64,000 nucleotides of DNA from Candidatus Neomarinimicrobiota bacterium (lineage in GTDB: Bacteria; Fidelibacterota; UBA2242; B5-G15). The stretch is taken from positions 1 to 64,000 of the forward strand of contig JACDNV010000006.1 of the NCBI GenBank assembly GCA_017656425.1, given 5' to 3'. Both the position numbers and the translations under genes were made by a program. Below are positions 42,310 through 48,037 of this stretch, one piece after another. Within the stretch, counting starts at the first letter, position 1, and the number at the start of each line of letters is the position of its first letter. Under the pieces are notes generated by a model. The model saw only the letters and a program-made list of their open reading frames with translations. It ran no database searches and had not been told where the DNA came from.

Positions 42310-42396
42310 AACCTAACCTTTTTATTTTATCAAACCACAAAATATAATAAAATAATACAATATAAACCAAGAGATGTCAACTTTTTGACAATGCAA

Positions 42397-42423
42397 GGGT
42401 TTATGAGTTGATGGGTTGGTGGT
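42397..42423 (+). repeat. Array 1, GAGTT orientation
   Basis: GGTTTATGAGTTGATGGG and a following TTGG, in the GAGTT sense on the plus strand. It is the weakest of the ten arrays and faces array 2 across about 40 bases, upstream of abiEi. Confidence 0.55.
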
Positions 42424-42464
42424 TTTTTATCCGACTTGAGATTATTCATTTTCAAAACTTCTAT

Positions 42465-42533
42465 ACTCATAACAACTCACAAACTCATTAACTCATTAAC
42501 TCATTAACTCACTAATCCATTAACCCACTAATT
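42465..42533 (-). repeat. Array 2, AACTC orientation
   Basis: A run of AACTCAC, AAACTCATT, AACTCATT, AACTCACTAATCCATTAACC words, the complement of array 1. It occupies the abiEi upstream region. Confidence 0.8.
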
Positions 42534-42602
42534 TGCTTGACAAACCGAATTATTTGTTTTATTTTTGTTTCTGTAAATAATAATTTTTTATGACTTACGG
42601 AA

Positions 42603-43238
42603 ATGAAATATTTAGAGTTTAAAAATGCGGTTAGGGAGTTCCCCATAATATCATCCACCCATATTTTTAATATCAATAAGGGCACTCGGACTCTTAAAAC
42701 CCAGTTAGTCGGATGGCAAAAGAAGGGTTTAGTTATCAAATTGAAGAGAGGGCTATACATTTTAAATGAGCGGGACAGGAAACATGAACCGTCCAGAATA
42801 TTCCTTGCCAATGCCCTATATTCACCATCTTATGTGAGTACAATTTATGCCCTGGGTTACTATGATTTAATTCCTGAAAAGGTGGTTGATGTTACATCAG
42901 TTACTACCAAAAAGACTACGAAATTTACAAATCCTTTTGGTACCTTCATTTATCAGCACTTGAAAACCAATTTATTTTTTGGTTTCAAAGAGATTGAAGA
43001 TGAAAATGGTTTTCCTGTTCTTATTGCAGAGCCAGAAAAGGCAGTGCTTGATTTCATTTACTTAAATTTACAGGATTTTAAAAGTAAAAATGAGGATGTC
43101 TTCAGTCTCTCATACAGGTTCCAAAATTTAGATATACTGAGAAGGAGATACCTTGTTGATTTTGCTAAAAAATACGAAAACAAGGAAATGCTTGATGTAG
43201 TAGAAAATTTATTAAGCTTTATGAAAGAAGAGAGATAA
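42603..43238 (+). CDS. abiEi: AbiEi-type antitoxin
   Basis: A 211-residue protein with an N-terminal winged helix (about 12-60, TRTLKTQLVGWQKKGLVIKL followed by KRGLYIL) and the AbiEi C-terminal domain (IAEPEKAVLDFIYL at about 142-155). It is the antitoxin and autorepressor of a type IV-like abortive infection pair. It is followed after 3 bases by the AbiEii nucleotidyltransferase. It has no strong ribosome site and is flanked upstream by the inverted arrays 1 and 2. Confidence 0.85.
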   Translation: MKYLEFKNAVREFPIISSTHIFNINKGTRTLKTQLVGWQKKGLVIKLKRGLYILNERDRKHEPSRIFLANALYSPSYVSTIYALGYYDLIPEKVVDVTSVTTKKTTKFTNPFGTFIYQHLKTNLFFGFKEIEDENGFPVLIAEPEKAVLDFIYLNLQDFKSKNEDVFSLSYRFQNLDILRRRYLVDFAKKYENKEMLDVVENLLSFMKEER

Positions 43239-43241
43239 TTT

Positions 43242-44054
43242 ATGCTTGATTTAATAAAGCGAAGTATCAAAGGCATTCCAGACAGTGAGATGAAAGTTCA
43301 CATCACCAGAGAATTTTTGCAATTACTTATATTAAAGATTATTTCCGATAAAGATTATTTTAAGAATCTCGCCTTTGTTGGGGGAACAGCATTGAGATTT
43401 CTTTATAGCCTAAGGAGATTTTCAGAAGACCTCGACTTTTCACTGATTAATAAAGAAGGTTATAAATTTGAGAGTTTTTTGGGAAAAATTACTTATGAAT
43501 TAGAAAAATATGGCCTTTCTGTAGAGATTAAGAAAAGTGCAAAAGAACCTGTCCAATCCGCCATGGTTAAATTTAAAGATATTTTGTATCTTTTAGGATT
43601 ATCCAGGCAAAAGGGCCGAAGACTTTCAATTAAGCTTGAAATAGACTCAAATCCACCTGTGGGTTGGAATACAGAGCTTTCTTTAGTGAATAAGCATTTT
43701 GTTTTTACAGTCCTACATTTTGATATTCCCTCTCTTTATGCTACAAAGATTCATGCCTGTTTTTTTAGAAAATACATTAAAGGAAGGGACTTTTATGATC
43801 TCATATGGTACTTTGGGAAAAAGGCTATGCCTAATTTTGAGCTTCTCAATAATGCCATAGAGCAGACAGAAAAAAAGAGAATGGATTTAAATGCGAAAAA
43901 TTTTAATGATTTTTTAAAAGAAAGATTAATAGGTATCGATTTTGCAAAAGTAAGGAAAGATGTAGAGAGATTTATAGAGGACAAGAACGAACTCAAATTA
44001 TTGAACAGGGATGTGATTTTAAAACTTCTGAATAAAGAGTTGATGAGTTTATGA
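43242..44054 (+). CDS. abiEii: AbiEii nucleotidyltransferase toxin
   Basis: A 270-residue DUF1814/AbiEii protein. The nucleotidyltransferase signature is GGTALRF (47-53) and EDLDFS (62-67), followed by a conserved KIHACFFRKYIKGRDFYDL block (about 167-185). AbiEii toxins such as MenT modify tRNA or other acceptors with nucleotides and block growth. The last codons (KELMSL and stop) are encoded by the first units of array 3, so the repeat supplies the C-terminus. Confidence 0.87.
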   Translation: MLDLIKRSIKGIPDSEMKVHITREFLQLLILKIISDKDYFKNLAFVGGTALRFLYSLRRFSEDLDFSLINKEGYKFESFLGKITYELEKYGLSVEIKKSAKEPVQSAMVKFKDILYLLGLSRQKGRRLSIKLEIDSNPPVGWNTELSLVNKHFVFTVLHFDIPSLYATKIHACFFRKYIKGRDFYDLIWYFGKKAMPNFELLNNAIEQTEKKRMDLNAKNFNDFLKERLIGIDFAKVRKDVERFIEDKNELKLLNRDVILKLLNKELMSL

Positions 44055-44093
44055 GTTTATGAGTTTAGGAGTTTAGGAGTTAGAGTTGGAGTA
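44037..44093 (+). repeat. Array 3, GAGTT orientation
   Basis: GAGTTGATGAGTTTATGAG and further GAGTTTAGGAGTT units. It encodes the AbiEii C-terminus and stop codon and fills the gap before livH. Confidence 0.85.
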
Positions 44094-44103
44094 TTAATAA
44101 GAG

Positions 44104-45002
44104 ATGATACAACAACTAATAGTGAATGGAATTATTGCAGGAAGCATTTACGGCTTAGTCGCTATTGGATTCACAATTATTTACCGCACGGTTAAATTTT
44201 TTCATTTTGCCCATGGGGTGGTTTATACAATAGGGGCTTACCTTGCTTACACTTTTATTAACTCACTAACCCATCAACTCCCAAACTCATTAACTGTTTA
44301 TATAACCTCTTTTCTTCTATCCGTAATCCTTGCTGCTATTCTTGGAATCGCTATTGATAGATTAGTCTATTATCCTCTCCGACGGCAGAATGCATCAAAT
44401 CTGATTTTTCTCCTTGCCTCATTCGGTGTTTTTATCTTTCTTCAGAATCTGATTCAACTCATATACGGGGCACAAATTCTCACGATTAGAACTGGACCCA
44501 TAAAAGAGGGACACCATTTCCTTGGTGCAGTGATTACCGATATTCAAATCTTAATACTGGTGGTTTCCATCATTCTTATGATACTGCTCTGGTTCTTTAT
44601 TCAGAAGACAAAACTAGGTAAGGCAATGAGGGCTGTTTCGGATGATCCTTTAGCAGCAAATTTGTCGGTATAAATCCTGAAAAGATAATCATGTCCTCAT
44701 TTGCTATTGGTTCTGCCCTGGCTGGTGCTGCTGGAATACTTATTTCTTTTGAAACCAATATTGAACCCACCATGGGATTTAGTGCTCTTCTGAAAGGTAT
44801 TATTGCCTCTATTATTGGTGGGATTGGCAGTATCCCTGGAGCTGTGCTTGGTGGATTCTTTCTTGGACTGGTTGAGAACCTTGGTATCTGGAAGATATCT
44901 GCTGGATGGAAGGATTGTATTGCGTTTGTAATACTCATAATCTTTCTATTGATAGGACCATGGGGTTTATTGAGTAATAAAACGGAGAAATTGAGTTTGT
45001 GA
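44104..45002 (+). pseudogene. livH: livH, branched-chain amino acid permease with a frameshift
   Basis: A LivH-type ABC permease in two frames. 44104-44673 gives about 189 residues up to KAMRAVSDDPLAANLSV, then a TAA stop. The continuation INPEKIIMSS through GPWGLLSN (44671-45002) is one frame over. A single missing G near 44662 (LVGINPEK) explains it. Transmembrane segments and the EAA-like KAMRAVSDDP loop are normal. The loop at codons 53-66 (NSLTHQLPNSLT) is encoded by array 4 and the last codons (KLSL) by array 5. The frame break may be a real inactivation or an assembly error. Confidence 0.82.
44258..44297 (-). repeat. Array 4, AACTC orientation, inside livH
   Basis: ACTCACTAACCCATCAACTC then CCAAACTCATTAACTG. 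It is read in frame within livH as an Asn/Ser/Leu-rich loop between membrane segments. Confidence 0.85.
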
Positions 45003-45137
45003 GTTTGGGAGTTTGTGAGTTTGTGAGTTTGTGAGTTTGGGGGTTTGTGAGTTGGTGAGTTATGGAGTTAGGAGTTAGGAGTTAGGAGTTAGGGAGTTTA
45101 GGAGTTTAAGAGTTTAAGAGTTTAGGAGTTAGGGAGT
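44994..45137 (+). repeat. Array 5, GAGTT orientation, longest array
   Basis: About 17 units of GAGTTTGTGAGTTTGGGAGTT and GAGTTAGGAGTT type. It contains the livH stop codon and ends at the start codon of the S23 gene, where AGGAG units 5-10 bases upstream double as ribosome-binding sites. Confidence 0.92.
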
Positions 45138-45138
45138 T

Positions 45139-45546
45139 ATGGCGAAAATAGAAAAGTTTGAAGATATTGAGGCCTGGCAAAAGGCAAGAAGTTTAGTTAA
45201 AGAAGTTTATAGAGTTTGTGGATTTGAGAGATACAAAAAAGATTATAATCTTATTGATCAAACGAGAAGCTCTGCAATTTCAATTATAGCTAACATTGCA
45301 GAAGGTTATGCCAGACGAACAAATAAAGAATTTATAAATTTTCTTGGAATGGCACATGCTTCAGCAGCAGAGCTTCAATCACATCTTTATGTCGCTTTAG
45401 ATCAGAGGTATATTTCTGATCAGGATTTTAGGATCATTTATTCATTAGCAGATCAAGTTTCTAAAATGATCCAGGGCTTTATTACTTACTTGAAAAACTC
45501 CCAAACTCCAAAACTCAAGAACTCTCAACTCAAAAGGAAAAATTAA
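45139..45546 (+). CDS. Four-helix S23 / 23S rRNA intervening-sequence-type protein
   Basis: A 135-residue four-helix bundle protein (TIGR02436 type): FEDIEAWQKARSLVKEVY (about 6-23), DQTRSSAISIIANIAEGYAR (about 40-59), FLGMAHASAAELQSHLYVAL (about 67-86). Members occur in 23S rRNA intervening sequences, as stand-alone genes and as relatives of the retroelement Avd protein. It splits livH from livM, lies between inverted arrays 5 and 6, and its C-terminus (NSQTPKLKNSQLKRKN) is array 6 sequence. The stop overlaps the livM start (TAATG). Confidence 0.85.
   Translation: MAKIEKFEDIEAWQKARSLVKEVYRVCGFERYKKDYNLIDQTRSSAISIIANIAEGYARRTNKEFINFLGMAHASAAELQSHLYVALDQRYISDQDFRIIYSLADQVSKMIQGFITYLKNSQTPKLKNSQLKRKN
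45486..45538 (-). repeat. Array 6, AACTC orientation, at the S23 C-terminus
   Basis: AAAAACTCCCAAACTCC, AAAACTCAAGAACTC and TCAACTC units. It encodes the last 15 residues of the S23 protein and is the inverted partner of array 5. Confidence 0.88.
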
Positions 45547-46415
45547 TGGAACATTTACTTCATATATTAGTAATCGCTGGAATATACATCATCTTGACTC
45601 TGAGCCTTAATCTCATTGTTGGATATACAGGACTGCCTGCACTGGGTCATGCAGCCTTTTCCTGCATTGGTGCGTATACGTCGAGTCTGCTTGCGCTGTA
45701 TATTGGGGTATCCCCATGGATAGGATTATTGATAGGGGGATGTTTGGCAGCTCTGTCAGGCATTATAATAGGATATCCTGCAGTACGATTAAAAGGGGAT
45801 TATCTTGCTCTGGCAACATTCGGGATGGGAGTTATTGTTTACTCCATCGCTAAGAACTGGGTATCCCTTACAAGGGGTCCAATGGGACTTCCCGGAATCC
45901 CCGGGTTTTCTATTTTTGGTATCCAGCTATCAGAGATATGGTCTTACCTGCTTCTGGTTTCGGTTTTTGTGGCAATTACCATATTTGTTATTAACAGGAT
46001 AGTAAATTCTCCATTTGGCAGGATACTTCGGTCTATCAGAGAGGACGAAATTGCCTCAGAGGCTTTAGGAAAAAATACAACCAAATATAAACTCCTGGTT
46101 TTTATTATCGGAGCATTCTTTGCTGGTATTGCTGGAAGCCTTTATGCTCACTACATAACCTTTATTGACCCTTCAAGCTTCACTGTTATGGAATCCATAA
46201 CCATTCTTCTTATGGTTATCTTTGGAGGAATGGGGAGCATATCAGGTTCTATAGTGGGAGCAGTGGTTTTGGTAGTATTTCCTGAACTTTTGAGATTTCT
46301 TGGAATGCCGTCTTCAATCGCAGCGCCTATGAGGCAAATGATATATGGATTGTTGCTCGTATCTCTTATGCTTAAAAGACCTCAGGGAATAATGGGGGTT
46401 TATAAGTTTAAGTAA
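45546..46415 (+). CDS. livM: LivM-type branched-chain amino acid ABC permease
   Basis: A 289-residue membrane permease with about eight hydrophobic segments. GLPALGHAAFSCIGAYTSSLL (about 29-49), PAVRLKGDYLALATFG and RSIREDEIASEALGKNTTKYKLL (about 160-182) are family-typical. ATG overlaps the S23 stop by one base. The C-terminus (YKFK) enters array 7. With LivH it would form the channel of a HAAT-family transporter for branched-chain amino acids, amides or urea. Confidence 0.92.
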   Translation: MEHLLHILVIAGIYIILTLSLNLIVGYTGLPALGHAAFSCIGAYTSSLLALYIGVSPWIGLLIGGCLAALSGIIIGYPAVRLKGDYLALATFGMGVIVYSIAKNWVSLTRGPMGLPGIPGFSIFGIQLSEIWSYLLLVSVFVAITIFVINRIVNSPFGRILRSIREDEIASEALGKNTTKYKLLVFIIGAFFAGIAGSLYAHYITFIDPSSFTVMESITILLMVIFGGMGSISGSIVGAVVLVVFPELLRFLGMPSSIAAPMRQMIYGLLLVSLMLKRPQGIMGVYKFK

Positions 46416-46449
46416 GTTTTTGAATTTATGAGTTAATGAGTGATGAGTT
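46400..46449 (+). repeat. Array 7, GAGTT orientation, livM-livG junction
   Basis: GTTTATAAGTTTAAGTAAG, then GAATTTATGAGTTAATGAG and TGATGAGTT units. It encodes the LivM C-terminus and contains the livG start codon (ATGAGT at 46443). Confidence 0.75.
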
Positions 46450-47249
46450 ATATTTTGCGAATAAAAAATCTTGTTAAGGAGTTTGATGGATTAAGGGCGG
46501 TAGATGACCTATCCTTTGATATTAAGAGAAATACTATCACTGCATTGATTGGACCGAATGGTTCAGGTAAGACCACTGTGTTTAACATAATAAGCGGTTT
46601 CTTAAAGCCAGAAGGAGGCAAGGTTATTTTTCAACTCAATAACTCATCAACTCATGAACTCACAAAACTTAGTCCTTATAGAATAGCCAGACTGGGTATT
46701 TCGCGGACATTTCAGAATATCAGATTATTCCCCCAGATTACGGTAATGGAAAATATGTTACTTTCGACCAGATATGAGAAGGGTGAAGGACTCATACCTG
46801 CACTTCTCCAGTCAAAGATCATGAAGGATGAGGAACGGAGAAATAGAGAAAAGGACATGGGATATCTTGAATTGGTAGGTCTTACTGATAAGAAAGATGA
46901 GCTTGCACAAAATCTATCGCATGGACAGAGAAGATTGCTTGAGTTAGCACGGGCACTGGCAACAGAAGCAGAACTCTTTTTACTGGATGAACCGACAGCA
47001 GGTGTCTTCCCAAATATGAGAATTAAGATTCTGGATGTGCTTGAGAAATTAAAAACCAAAGGCAAGACTATCCTACTCATTGAGCATGATATGAAGGTAG
47101 TGACAGGGATTTCCGATAATGTAATTGTGTTGAATTACGGTCAAAAGATTGCTGAAGGGCCTCCAGAGGTGGTAACCAGAGATGAGAGGGTTATAGAAGC
47201 CTATCTTGGCAAGAAAAGGAGTTCGGGAGTTGGAGAGTTCAGGAGTTGA
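46443..47249 (+). CDS. livG: LivG-type ABC ATPase
   Basis: A 268-residue ATPase: Walker [10 protein letters not shown] (about 37-45), signature [15 protein letters not shown] (about 159-173), Walker [11 protein letters not shown] and the H-loop LLIEHDM. Between the Walker A helix and the Q-loop (ISRTFQN) lies a loop [12 protein letters not shown] that is encoded by array 8 and replaces the usual short connector. The start codon lies inside array 7 with no other ribosome site. The last residues ([11 protein letters not shown]) are array 9 sequence. Confidence 0.92.
46625..46667 (-). repeat. Array 8, AACTC orientation, inside livG
   Basis: CAACTCAATAACTCATCAAC followed by TCATGAACTCACAAAACTT, translated in frame in livG as an Asn/Ser/Thr-rich loop. 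Confidence 0.85.
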
Positions 47250-47256
47250 GGAGTTA
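47217..47256 (+). repeat. Array 9, GAGTT orientation, livG-livF junction
   Basis: AGGAGTTCGGGAGTTGGAGA, then GTTCAGGAGTTGAGGAGTT. It encodes the LivG C-terminus and its stop, and GAGGAG serves as the livF ribosome site. Confidence 0.85.
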
Positions 47257-47260
47257 AAAA

Positions 47261-48037
47261 ATGAACTATAATCAAAAAAAATTTGATAATAAATTTCTAA
47301 CTCAAAAACTCACTAACTCAAAAACACATTTAACTCTTTTAGAAGTAAAAAACTTAACAGTACATTACGGCTCTGTCCTCGCTCTGGATGATATTTCTCT
47401 CTCTGTCAATGGGGGAGAAATTGTGGCAATGATAGGTCCGAATGGTGCTGGAAAATCTACAGCTTTAAAGGCAATTTGTGGTCTTGTAAAATCCACATCA
47501 GGAGAAATCTTATTTCAGGGAGAAGATATAAATGGCAATCAGCCATATCAACTGGTTGAGAAAGGATTATGCCTTGTGCCAGAAGGAAGACGAGTTTTTA
47601 CTTCAATGACTGTTTTAGAGAATTTGGAGATGGGAGCTTATACCAGAAATGATAAAAATATTCAGGAAGATATTGATAGAGTATTTACTTTATTTCCTGT
47701 TCTCAAGAAAAGACAGAAACAGAGAGCAGGAACATTGAGTAGTGGAGAACAACAGATGCTTGCTATTGGCAGGGCACTGATGCTAAAACCAAAACTGCTT
47801 TTATTAGATGAACCATCACTGGGACTTTCTCCAAATTATATGGAAACTGTATTTGAAAAGATAAAAGAAATTAACAAAGAGGGAACTATAATTCTCCTCG
47901 TGGAGCAGAATGCCAGGATGGCTCTGGAATATGCTGATAGAGGCTATGTATTTAAAATAGGCAAAATTGCTTTTGAGGATAATGCAAAAAACCTCCTTGA
48001 AAATGATGAAATTAAACAGTCATTTTTAGGAGGATAA
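47261..48037 (+). CDS. livF: LivF-type ABC ATPase
   Basis: A 258-residue ATPase with Walker A GPNGAGKST (about 63-71), signature LSSGEQQMLAIGRAL (about 164-178) and LLLLDEPSLGLSP. Normal LivF starts at LLEVKNLTVHYG, which here begins only at residue 27. The 26-residue extension MNYNQKKFDNKFLTQKLTNS and KTHLT is largely array 10 translated in frame, and no alternative start codon exists after it. It is the last gene of the transporter. No livK binding-protein gene is present in the window. Confidence 0.92.
   Translation: MNYNQKKFDNKFLTQKLTNSKTHLTLLEVKNLTVHYGSVLALDDISLSVNGGEIVAMIGPNGAGKSTALKAICGLVKSTSGEILFQGEDINGNQPYQLVEKGLCLVPEGRRVFTSMTVLENLEMGAYTRNDKNIQEDIDRVFTLFPVLKKRQKQRAGTLSSGEQQMLAIGRALMLKPKLLLLDEPSLGLSPNYMETVFEKIKEINKEGTIILLVEQNARMALEYADRGYVFKIGKIAFEDNAKNLLENDEIKQSFLGG
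47289..47338 (-). repeat. Array 10, AACTC orientation, inside livF 5' end
   Basis: CTAACTCAAAAACTCACTAA, then CTCAAAAACACATTTAACTC. It codes for the N-terminal extension of LivF and is the inverted partner of array 9, 30 bases away. Confidence 0.85.

Follow-up and report, generated by a model that had tools for sequence, protein, structure and literature searches.

Proteins of the family PF05635/TIGR02436 are four-helix-bundle (4HB) proteins known from intervening sequences (IVSs) of 23S rRNA that carry an open reading frame (ORF). In Coxiella, the S23p/IVP gene lies inside a 428-nt IVS, which has a 28-bp stem at its boundaries and is excised by RNase III, and rRNA IVSs with such an ORF have also been reported from Leptospira and Brucella (PMC4990558). 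PF05635 resembles, in sequence and structure, the Avd protein of diversity-generating retroelements (PMC10053308). Here we analyze a member of this family in a 64,000-nt stretch (the window; positions 1 to 64,000 of contig JACDNV010000006.1, assembly GCA_017656425.1) from a Candidatus Neomarinimicrobiota bacterium, in which ten GAGTT/AACTC arrays run across an abiE module and a liv transporter operon (42399-47338). The gap between arrays 5 and 6, at the livH-livM junction, holds a 4HB gene that was overlooked in the first-pass annotation of this DNA. In our view, arrays 5 and 6 are likely to form the left and the right arm, respectively, of a small IVS/S23-type mobile element that carries the 4HB gene, and the other arrays of the window are likely to be its derivatives. 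Together, the data point to the 4HB element as a widespread, apparently undescribed kind of mobile element.

The window protein matches PF05635 with 116.6 bits (cutoff 33.8) and TIGR02436 with 112 bits (cutoff 24), and its relatives with solved structures include 2GSC and 2RLD. As in the ORF-bearing rRNA IVSs, an ORF of this family lies in the loop between complementary, stem-forming termini, the size is similar (about 430 nt in Coxiella; PMC4990558), and the presence is patchy, with empty sites at the liv and hypF-hypC junctions. Unlike the rRNA IVSs, the window element lies at a junction between two protein genes and not inside an rRNA gene, and the arms of its class are degenerate 7-9 bp tandem arrays with a word that differs per locus. 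The resemblance to Avd extends to a weak match of the window protein to bAvd, but the reverse transcriptase of a diversity-generating retroelement has no counterpart here, as there was no RVT_1 match in this genome (G000, 99.66% complete). Template or variable repeats were not seen either, although no search was aimed at them. A reverse-transcriptase route of that type is thus unlikely, and we rejected it for this genome; the element would not require such an enzyme in its own genome.

Inverted arms also frame 4HB genes in other bacteria. In a sample of 80 loci from many phyla, selected by similarity to one 4HB subgroup and with ORF-based gene calls, 73 of 79 loci showed more inverted similarity between their two flanks than the 95th percentile of a mate-swapped null, and an inverted-flank score of at least 28 was reached by 77% of the 4HB genes vs 3.8% of 293 control genes. 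The arms were periodic in 127 of 138 cases, with a period of 7 in 86, of 8 in 29 and of 9 in 10; G was above C in 58 of 69 left arms, and the arm word differed from locus to locus yet matched between the two arms of one locus. The 4HB genes stood in same-strand gene triples at 54 of 76 loci, compared with 48% of control triples. The armed anatomy was present in 7/7 complete plasmids of named strains, and therefore it is not an artefact of metagenome assembly. A 4HB element also lies at the Nostoc plasmid locus NZ_CP046706.1 (L294). On plasmid pANA02 of Anabaena sp. 90, an armed 4HB gene has cas6 on one side and cas4 on the other, within a type I-D CRISPR operon (L299, 1998-2366), which may be the reason why IVP genes were previously reported from cas loci (PMC3936711). 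We found no account of the arms in the open-access full-text literature.

Short periodic repeats are known from other settings. The part of the Nostoc report drawn on here describes the P6b stem of the trnL group I intron as made of paired, degenerate heptad repeats (Class I, TDNGATT; Class II, NNTGAGT), for which replacement of the whole stem was proposed; Class II closely resembles the window word, but the stem described there lies within a group I intron, with no ORF between its arms and no linked 4HB gene (PMC4476775). The TAACTGA direct repeats of marine Beggiatoaceae, cyanobacteria and Bacteroidetes consist of one fixed word, lie mostly upstream of starts and include one inverted case only (PMC4679880). 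Like the window class, these repeats and the cyanobacterial STRRs are heptad arrays that lie between genes, close to gene ends, with a patchy distribution across phyla (PMC4679880); they lack a 4HB gene, whereas the 4HB arms are neither unpaired direct repeats nor built on one fixed word, being inverted around a gene with words that vary per locus.

Such likeness allows the arrays to be read as slippage-born heptad or octad repeats that serve as cis-regulatory sites near starts or stops, with the 4HB gene merely incidental. The TAACTGA repeats are indeed intergenic and positioned relative to start codons (PMC4679880), and the relatives G064, G067 and G036 commonly have solo GAGTT arrays at gene ends that lack a 4HB gene; of 51 solo arrays in relatives, 26 start within -15 to +22 nt of a stop codon in sense, and 6 do so in antisense. 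We nevertheless judge this explanation very improbable, given the excess of inverted arms at 4HB genes over control genes, the match of otherwise variable words between a locus's two arms, the restriction of the arrays to 5 kb of a 2.8 Mb genome and the existence of both filled and empty sites. In G036 (L301, L302), convergent GAGTT arrays without a 4HB gene surround 220-310 bp of apparently non-coding DNA at gene ends; part of this arrangement is explicable by a pair of converging genes that each carry an array at the 3' end.

The genome under study contains copies that carry a 4HB gene alongside copies that lack it, and we therefore applied the same model to the window arrays. One other 4HB subgroup is represented by four dispersed copies, which share 96-99% identity over about 440-470 bp and have unrelated flanks, and about 25 further matches, mostly ORF-less and including units of 187-205 bp, carry the ends and arms of these four. 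Besides the GAGTT arrays, these copies make up a second dispersed repeat family, TTAAGCGCAA...AAGACG, with heptad arms (ATTTTGC), which is partly tandem and lies at several contig ends; its repeats occur at positions 84-128 of the window and on contigs C5, C7, C9, C11, C21, C24 and C26. Another possible explanation is a DNA element whose ends are the hairpin arms and which a transposase moves in trans; the 4HB gene would then be a passenger, and RNA processing would play no part. The gene-less matches, which outnumber the 4HB copies (about 25 to 4) and have both ends in common, suit this explanation, but a mere passenger is hard to reconcile with the same protein family being nearly universal between arms across phyla, and the TTAAGCG...AAGACG copies did not have consistent target-site duplications around them; we regard transposition in trans as rather unlikely.

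Near 4HB genes, same-word ORF-less hairpins were convergent in five cases (one in the window and four at unrelated loci) and divergent in none, with a control value of 0.1. Distal same-word arrays were found at loose thresholds at 41 loci vs 16 in the control, a noisy result, and under a stricter filter their alternation (16 to 8) was not significant; our claim is kept to the convergent close pairs (5 to 0).

The features of the window between 42399 and 48037 are the following.

42399-42432, plus strand: array 1, GAGTT sense, weak; best read as left arm of an ORF-less hairpin upstream of abiE (fold of 42390-42540, z -5.4)
42461-42531, minus strand: array 2, AACTC sense; best read as right arm of the ORF-less hairpin with array 1
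42603-44054, plus strand: abiEi-abiEii, type IV toxin-antitoxin module; host sequence separating array 2 from array 3
44037-44093, plus strand: array 3, GAGTT sense; extends over the abiEii stop codon
44254-44296, minus strand: array 4, AACTC sense; in-frame LivH insertion (about NSLTHQLPNSL), not in ortholog G237
44104-45002, plus strand: livH permease, split by an apparent frameshift near 44673
44985-45138, plus strand: array 5, GAGTT, about 18 units; probable left arm of the 4HB element; provides the livH stop codon
45139-45546, plus strand: 4HB gene, 135 aa, PF05635 E 7e-34, TIGR02436; C-terminus encoded by the right arm
45490-45534, minus strand: array 6, AACTC sense; probable right arm of the 4HB element, directly before livM
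45546-46415, plus strand: livM permease
46396-46451, plus strand: array 7, degenerate GAGTT sense; across the livM stop and livG start
46440-47249, plus strand: livG ATPase
46627-46669, minus strand: array 8, AACTC sense; in-frame LivG insertion, not in ortholog G237
47214-47257, plus strand: array 9, GAGTT sense; across the livG stop; best read as left arm of an ORF-less hairpin
47295-47338, minus strand: array 10, AACTC sense; best read as right arm of that hairpin; part of a 23-aa N-terminal extension of LivF
47261-48037, plus strand: livF ATPase

The AbiEi/AbiEii type IV toxin-antitoxin pair thus stands immediately upstream of livH.

All ten arrays were found as the first-pass annotation had described them, alternating in orientation without exception. 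Arrays 2-6 and 8-10 are strong, while array 1, with a single exact GAGTT, and array 7, which is degenerate, are weak. The repeat unit is mostly 8 bp, GAGTTNNN; such a consensus unit does not define a family, since GAGTT is one among very many arm words of the class. Our genome-wide statements are based on pattern, family and DNA searches of the 2.8 Mb genome, and the confinement of the arrays to these 5 kb was borne out: the pattern GAGTTN{2,5}GAGTTN{2,5}GAGTT had 30 matches, 30/30 within the 5 kb, its reversed control had none, and two-unit matches outside the 5 kb (18, against 29 for the reversed pattern) showed no excess over the control.

Such clustering would also be expected if the AbiE-liv segment had been imported whole from a donor rich in GAGTT arrays, as a footprint of the transfer. 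The absence of arrays elsewhere in this genome fits import, as does the rarity of LivM homologues, found at E<=1e-60 in only 5/245 genomes of the phylum. However, ten arrays per 5 kb are far above the density in the array-rich relatives examined, and the closest LivM (81%) comes from the same order, from G011, which scores no GAGTT arrays; import of the whole segment is in our view improbable.

The alternation had been assigned a chance probability of about 1 in 500. It is expected, because arms are convergent and the reading frame limits orientation, and therefore this figure is not a valid chance estimate or p-value. Alternation may even be a by-product, if stop-carrying GAGTT-sense arms survive at gene ends and readable AACTC-sense arms survive inside genes, as ends and interiors alternate along an operon. 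GAGTT-sense arrays 3, 5, 7 and 9 each overlap the stop of the upstream ORF, AACTC-sense arrays 4, 6, 8 and 10 each lie within an ORF, and arms 4, 8 and 10 have at least one open frame in the AACTC sense and none in the GAGTT sense. The wholly intergenic arrays 1 and 2 and the convergent ORF-less hairpins elsewhere (5 to 0) are left unexplained in this way. This account concerns the alternation only and is compatible with arrays 5 and 6 being the arms of a 4HB element; we think it quite possible without favoring it.

The array pairs fold into stable predicted hairpins, all five with z -2.6 to -5.4 against mononucleotide shuffles. Of the five discrete inverted pairs assumed earlier, only 1|2, 5|6 and 9|10 remain as candidates for discrete elements; arms 3|4 have conserved livH coding sequence between them and arms 7|8 conserved livG coding sequence, and these arms must therefore have been placed separately. 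Apart from arrays 5 and 6, the arrays are best read as ORF-less hairpins (1|2 and 9|10) or as single arms (3, 4, 7 and 8).

Comparison with a liv operon without arrays, proposed in the first-pass annotation as a check, indicated that the elements are foreign to the ancestral operon. In the ortholog G237, the junctions are tight, livH being separated from livM by only a few nt, and LivH, LivG and LivF all lack the insertions. In G011, the livH-livM junction is occupied by a different 4HB gene, of a separate clade and with GACTTTAGACT arms, and the livM-livG junction (L157 1640-1790) carries an array of the same GACTTTAGACT word; judging by this array, spread of arms to neighboring junctions may be recurrent. 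Another junction, hypF-hypC, was found empty in 8 species, filled in 4 and decayed in 2 within one related genus of the phylum (G064 is filled), and in the filled state the array starts within the last hypF codons and provides the stop.

The window livH shows an apparent 1-base frameshift at 44660-44700 (AANLSV followed by a stop vs AANVVGINPER in G011), reflecting either a pseudogene or a sequencing error. The livG gene of G011 is also split by a stop or frameshift (L157 1770-2537), and decay of the liv operon may be recurrent.

Other short inverted elements that form hairpins at operon junctions or in frame within genes are the REP, BIME and REPIN sequences and the Rickettsia palindromic elements. 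The 4HB arms, being degenerate tandem repeats with a word that differs by locus, have no conserved core palindrome as the REP, BIME and REPIN sequences do, and their linked gene encodes the 4HB protein, whereas that of the latter encodes the RAYT transposase. With the Rickettsia palindromic elements the window arrays share in-frame insertion in coding genes (LivH, LivG and LivF, as compared with G237), but they are bare repeat arrays of varying length and not a single conserved palindromic sequence. The earlier proposal of an unnamed family of paired inverted elements, distinct from BIMEs and from Rickettsia palindromic elements, thus holds insofar as the elements are paired, inverted, foreign to the ancestral liv operon and neither of these two; what it missed is that the key feature is the 4HB gene, with the arrays probably its arms and derivatives.

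We postulate that a 4HB gene framed by convergent degenerate arms (usually 7-9 bp repeats) was inserted between livH and livM, and that arms of the same word would then have spread locally through the gene run, either as ORF-less hairpins or as single arms. The element and its arms would be transcribed within the polycistronic mRNA of the operon, in which convergent arm pairs are predicted to fold into long imperfect hairpins. RNase III or a similar enzyme might cut these stems, as in the rRNA IVSs, a step that we put forward only tentatively, by analogy. By analogy with Avd (PMC10053308), the 4HB protein may bind hairpin nucleic acid and help the element to spread, and it could be either the driver of movement or a rider. 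Tolerance of stop codons by the GAGTT-sense arms and of read-through by the AACTC-sense arms would fix the orientation of the arrays relative to genes.

Several observations weigh against this interpretation. In an RNA duplex-energy matrix of the window arms, the assigned partners were not favored over other arms, and we rejected partner-specific arm pairing. Arms 3|4 and 7|8 enclose host coding sequence, and placement of single arms needs an explanation of its own. Arm words do not track the 4HB phylogeny, which suggests that the arms may not always travel with the gene as a fixed unit. The analysis established neither a transposase nor a target-site duplication nor any other signature of movement, and the 80 loci represent likeness to a single 4HB subgroup.

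More broadly, and with some reserve, we speculate that these loci belong to a class of mobile intervening elements that occurs in protein-coding operons throughout bacteria, in which a 4HB gene lies in the loop of a hairpin and the degenerate heptad arms are rebuilt with a new word at new sites, leaving behind ORF-less hairpins and single arms, as seen here through one operon; heptad repeats scattered elsewhere, including the P6b stems of Nostoc trnL, could possibly be explained by such a class. The PF05635 4HB genes are uncharacterised small genes found across bacteria, and if nearly all of them are armed, located at operon junctions and variable between species, they would represent a common, overlooked mobile element acting on mRNA layout. 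If so, rRNA intervening sequences, intergenic heptad repeats and Avd-like proteins would be linked, the presence of IVP genes inside cas loci and transporter operons would be given a reason, and the role of S23p would become testable in ordinary laboratory strains.

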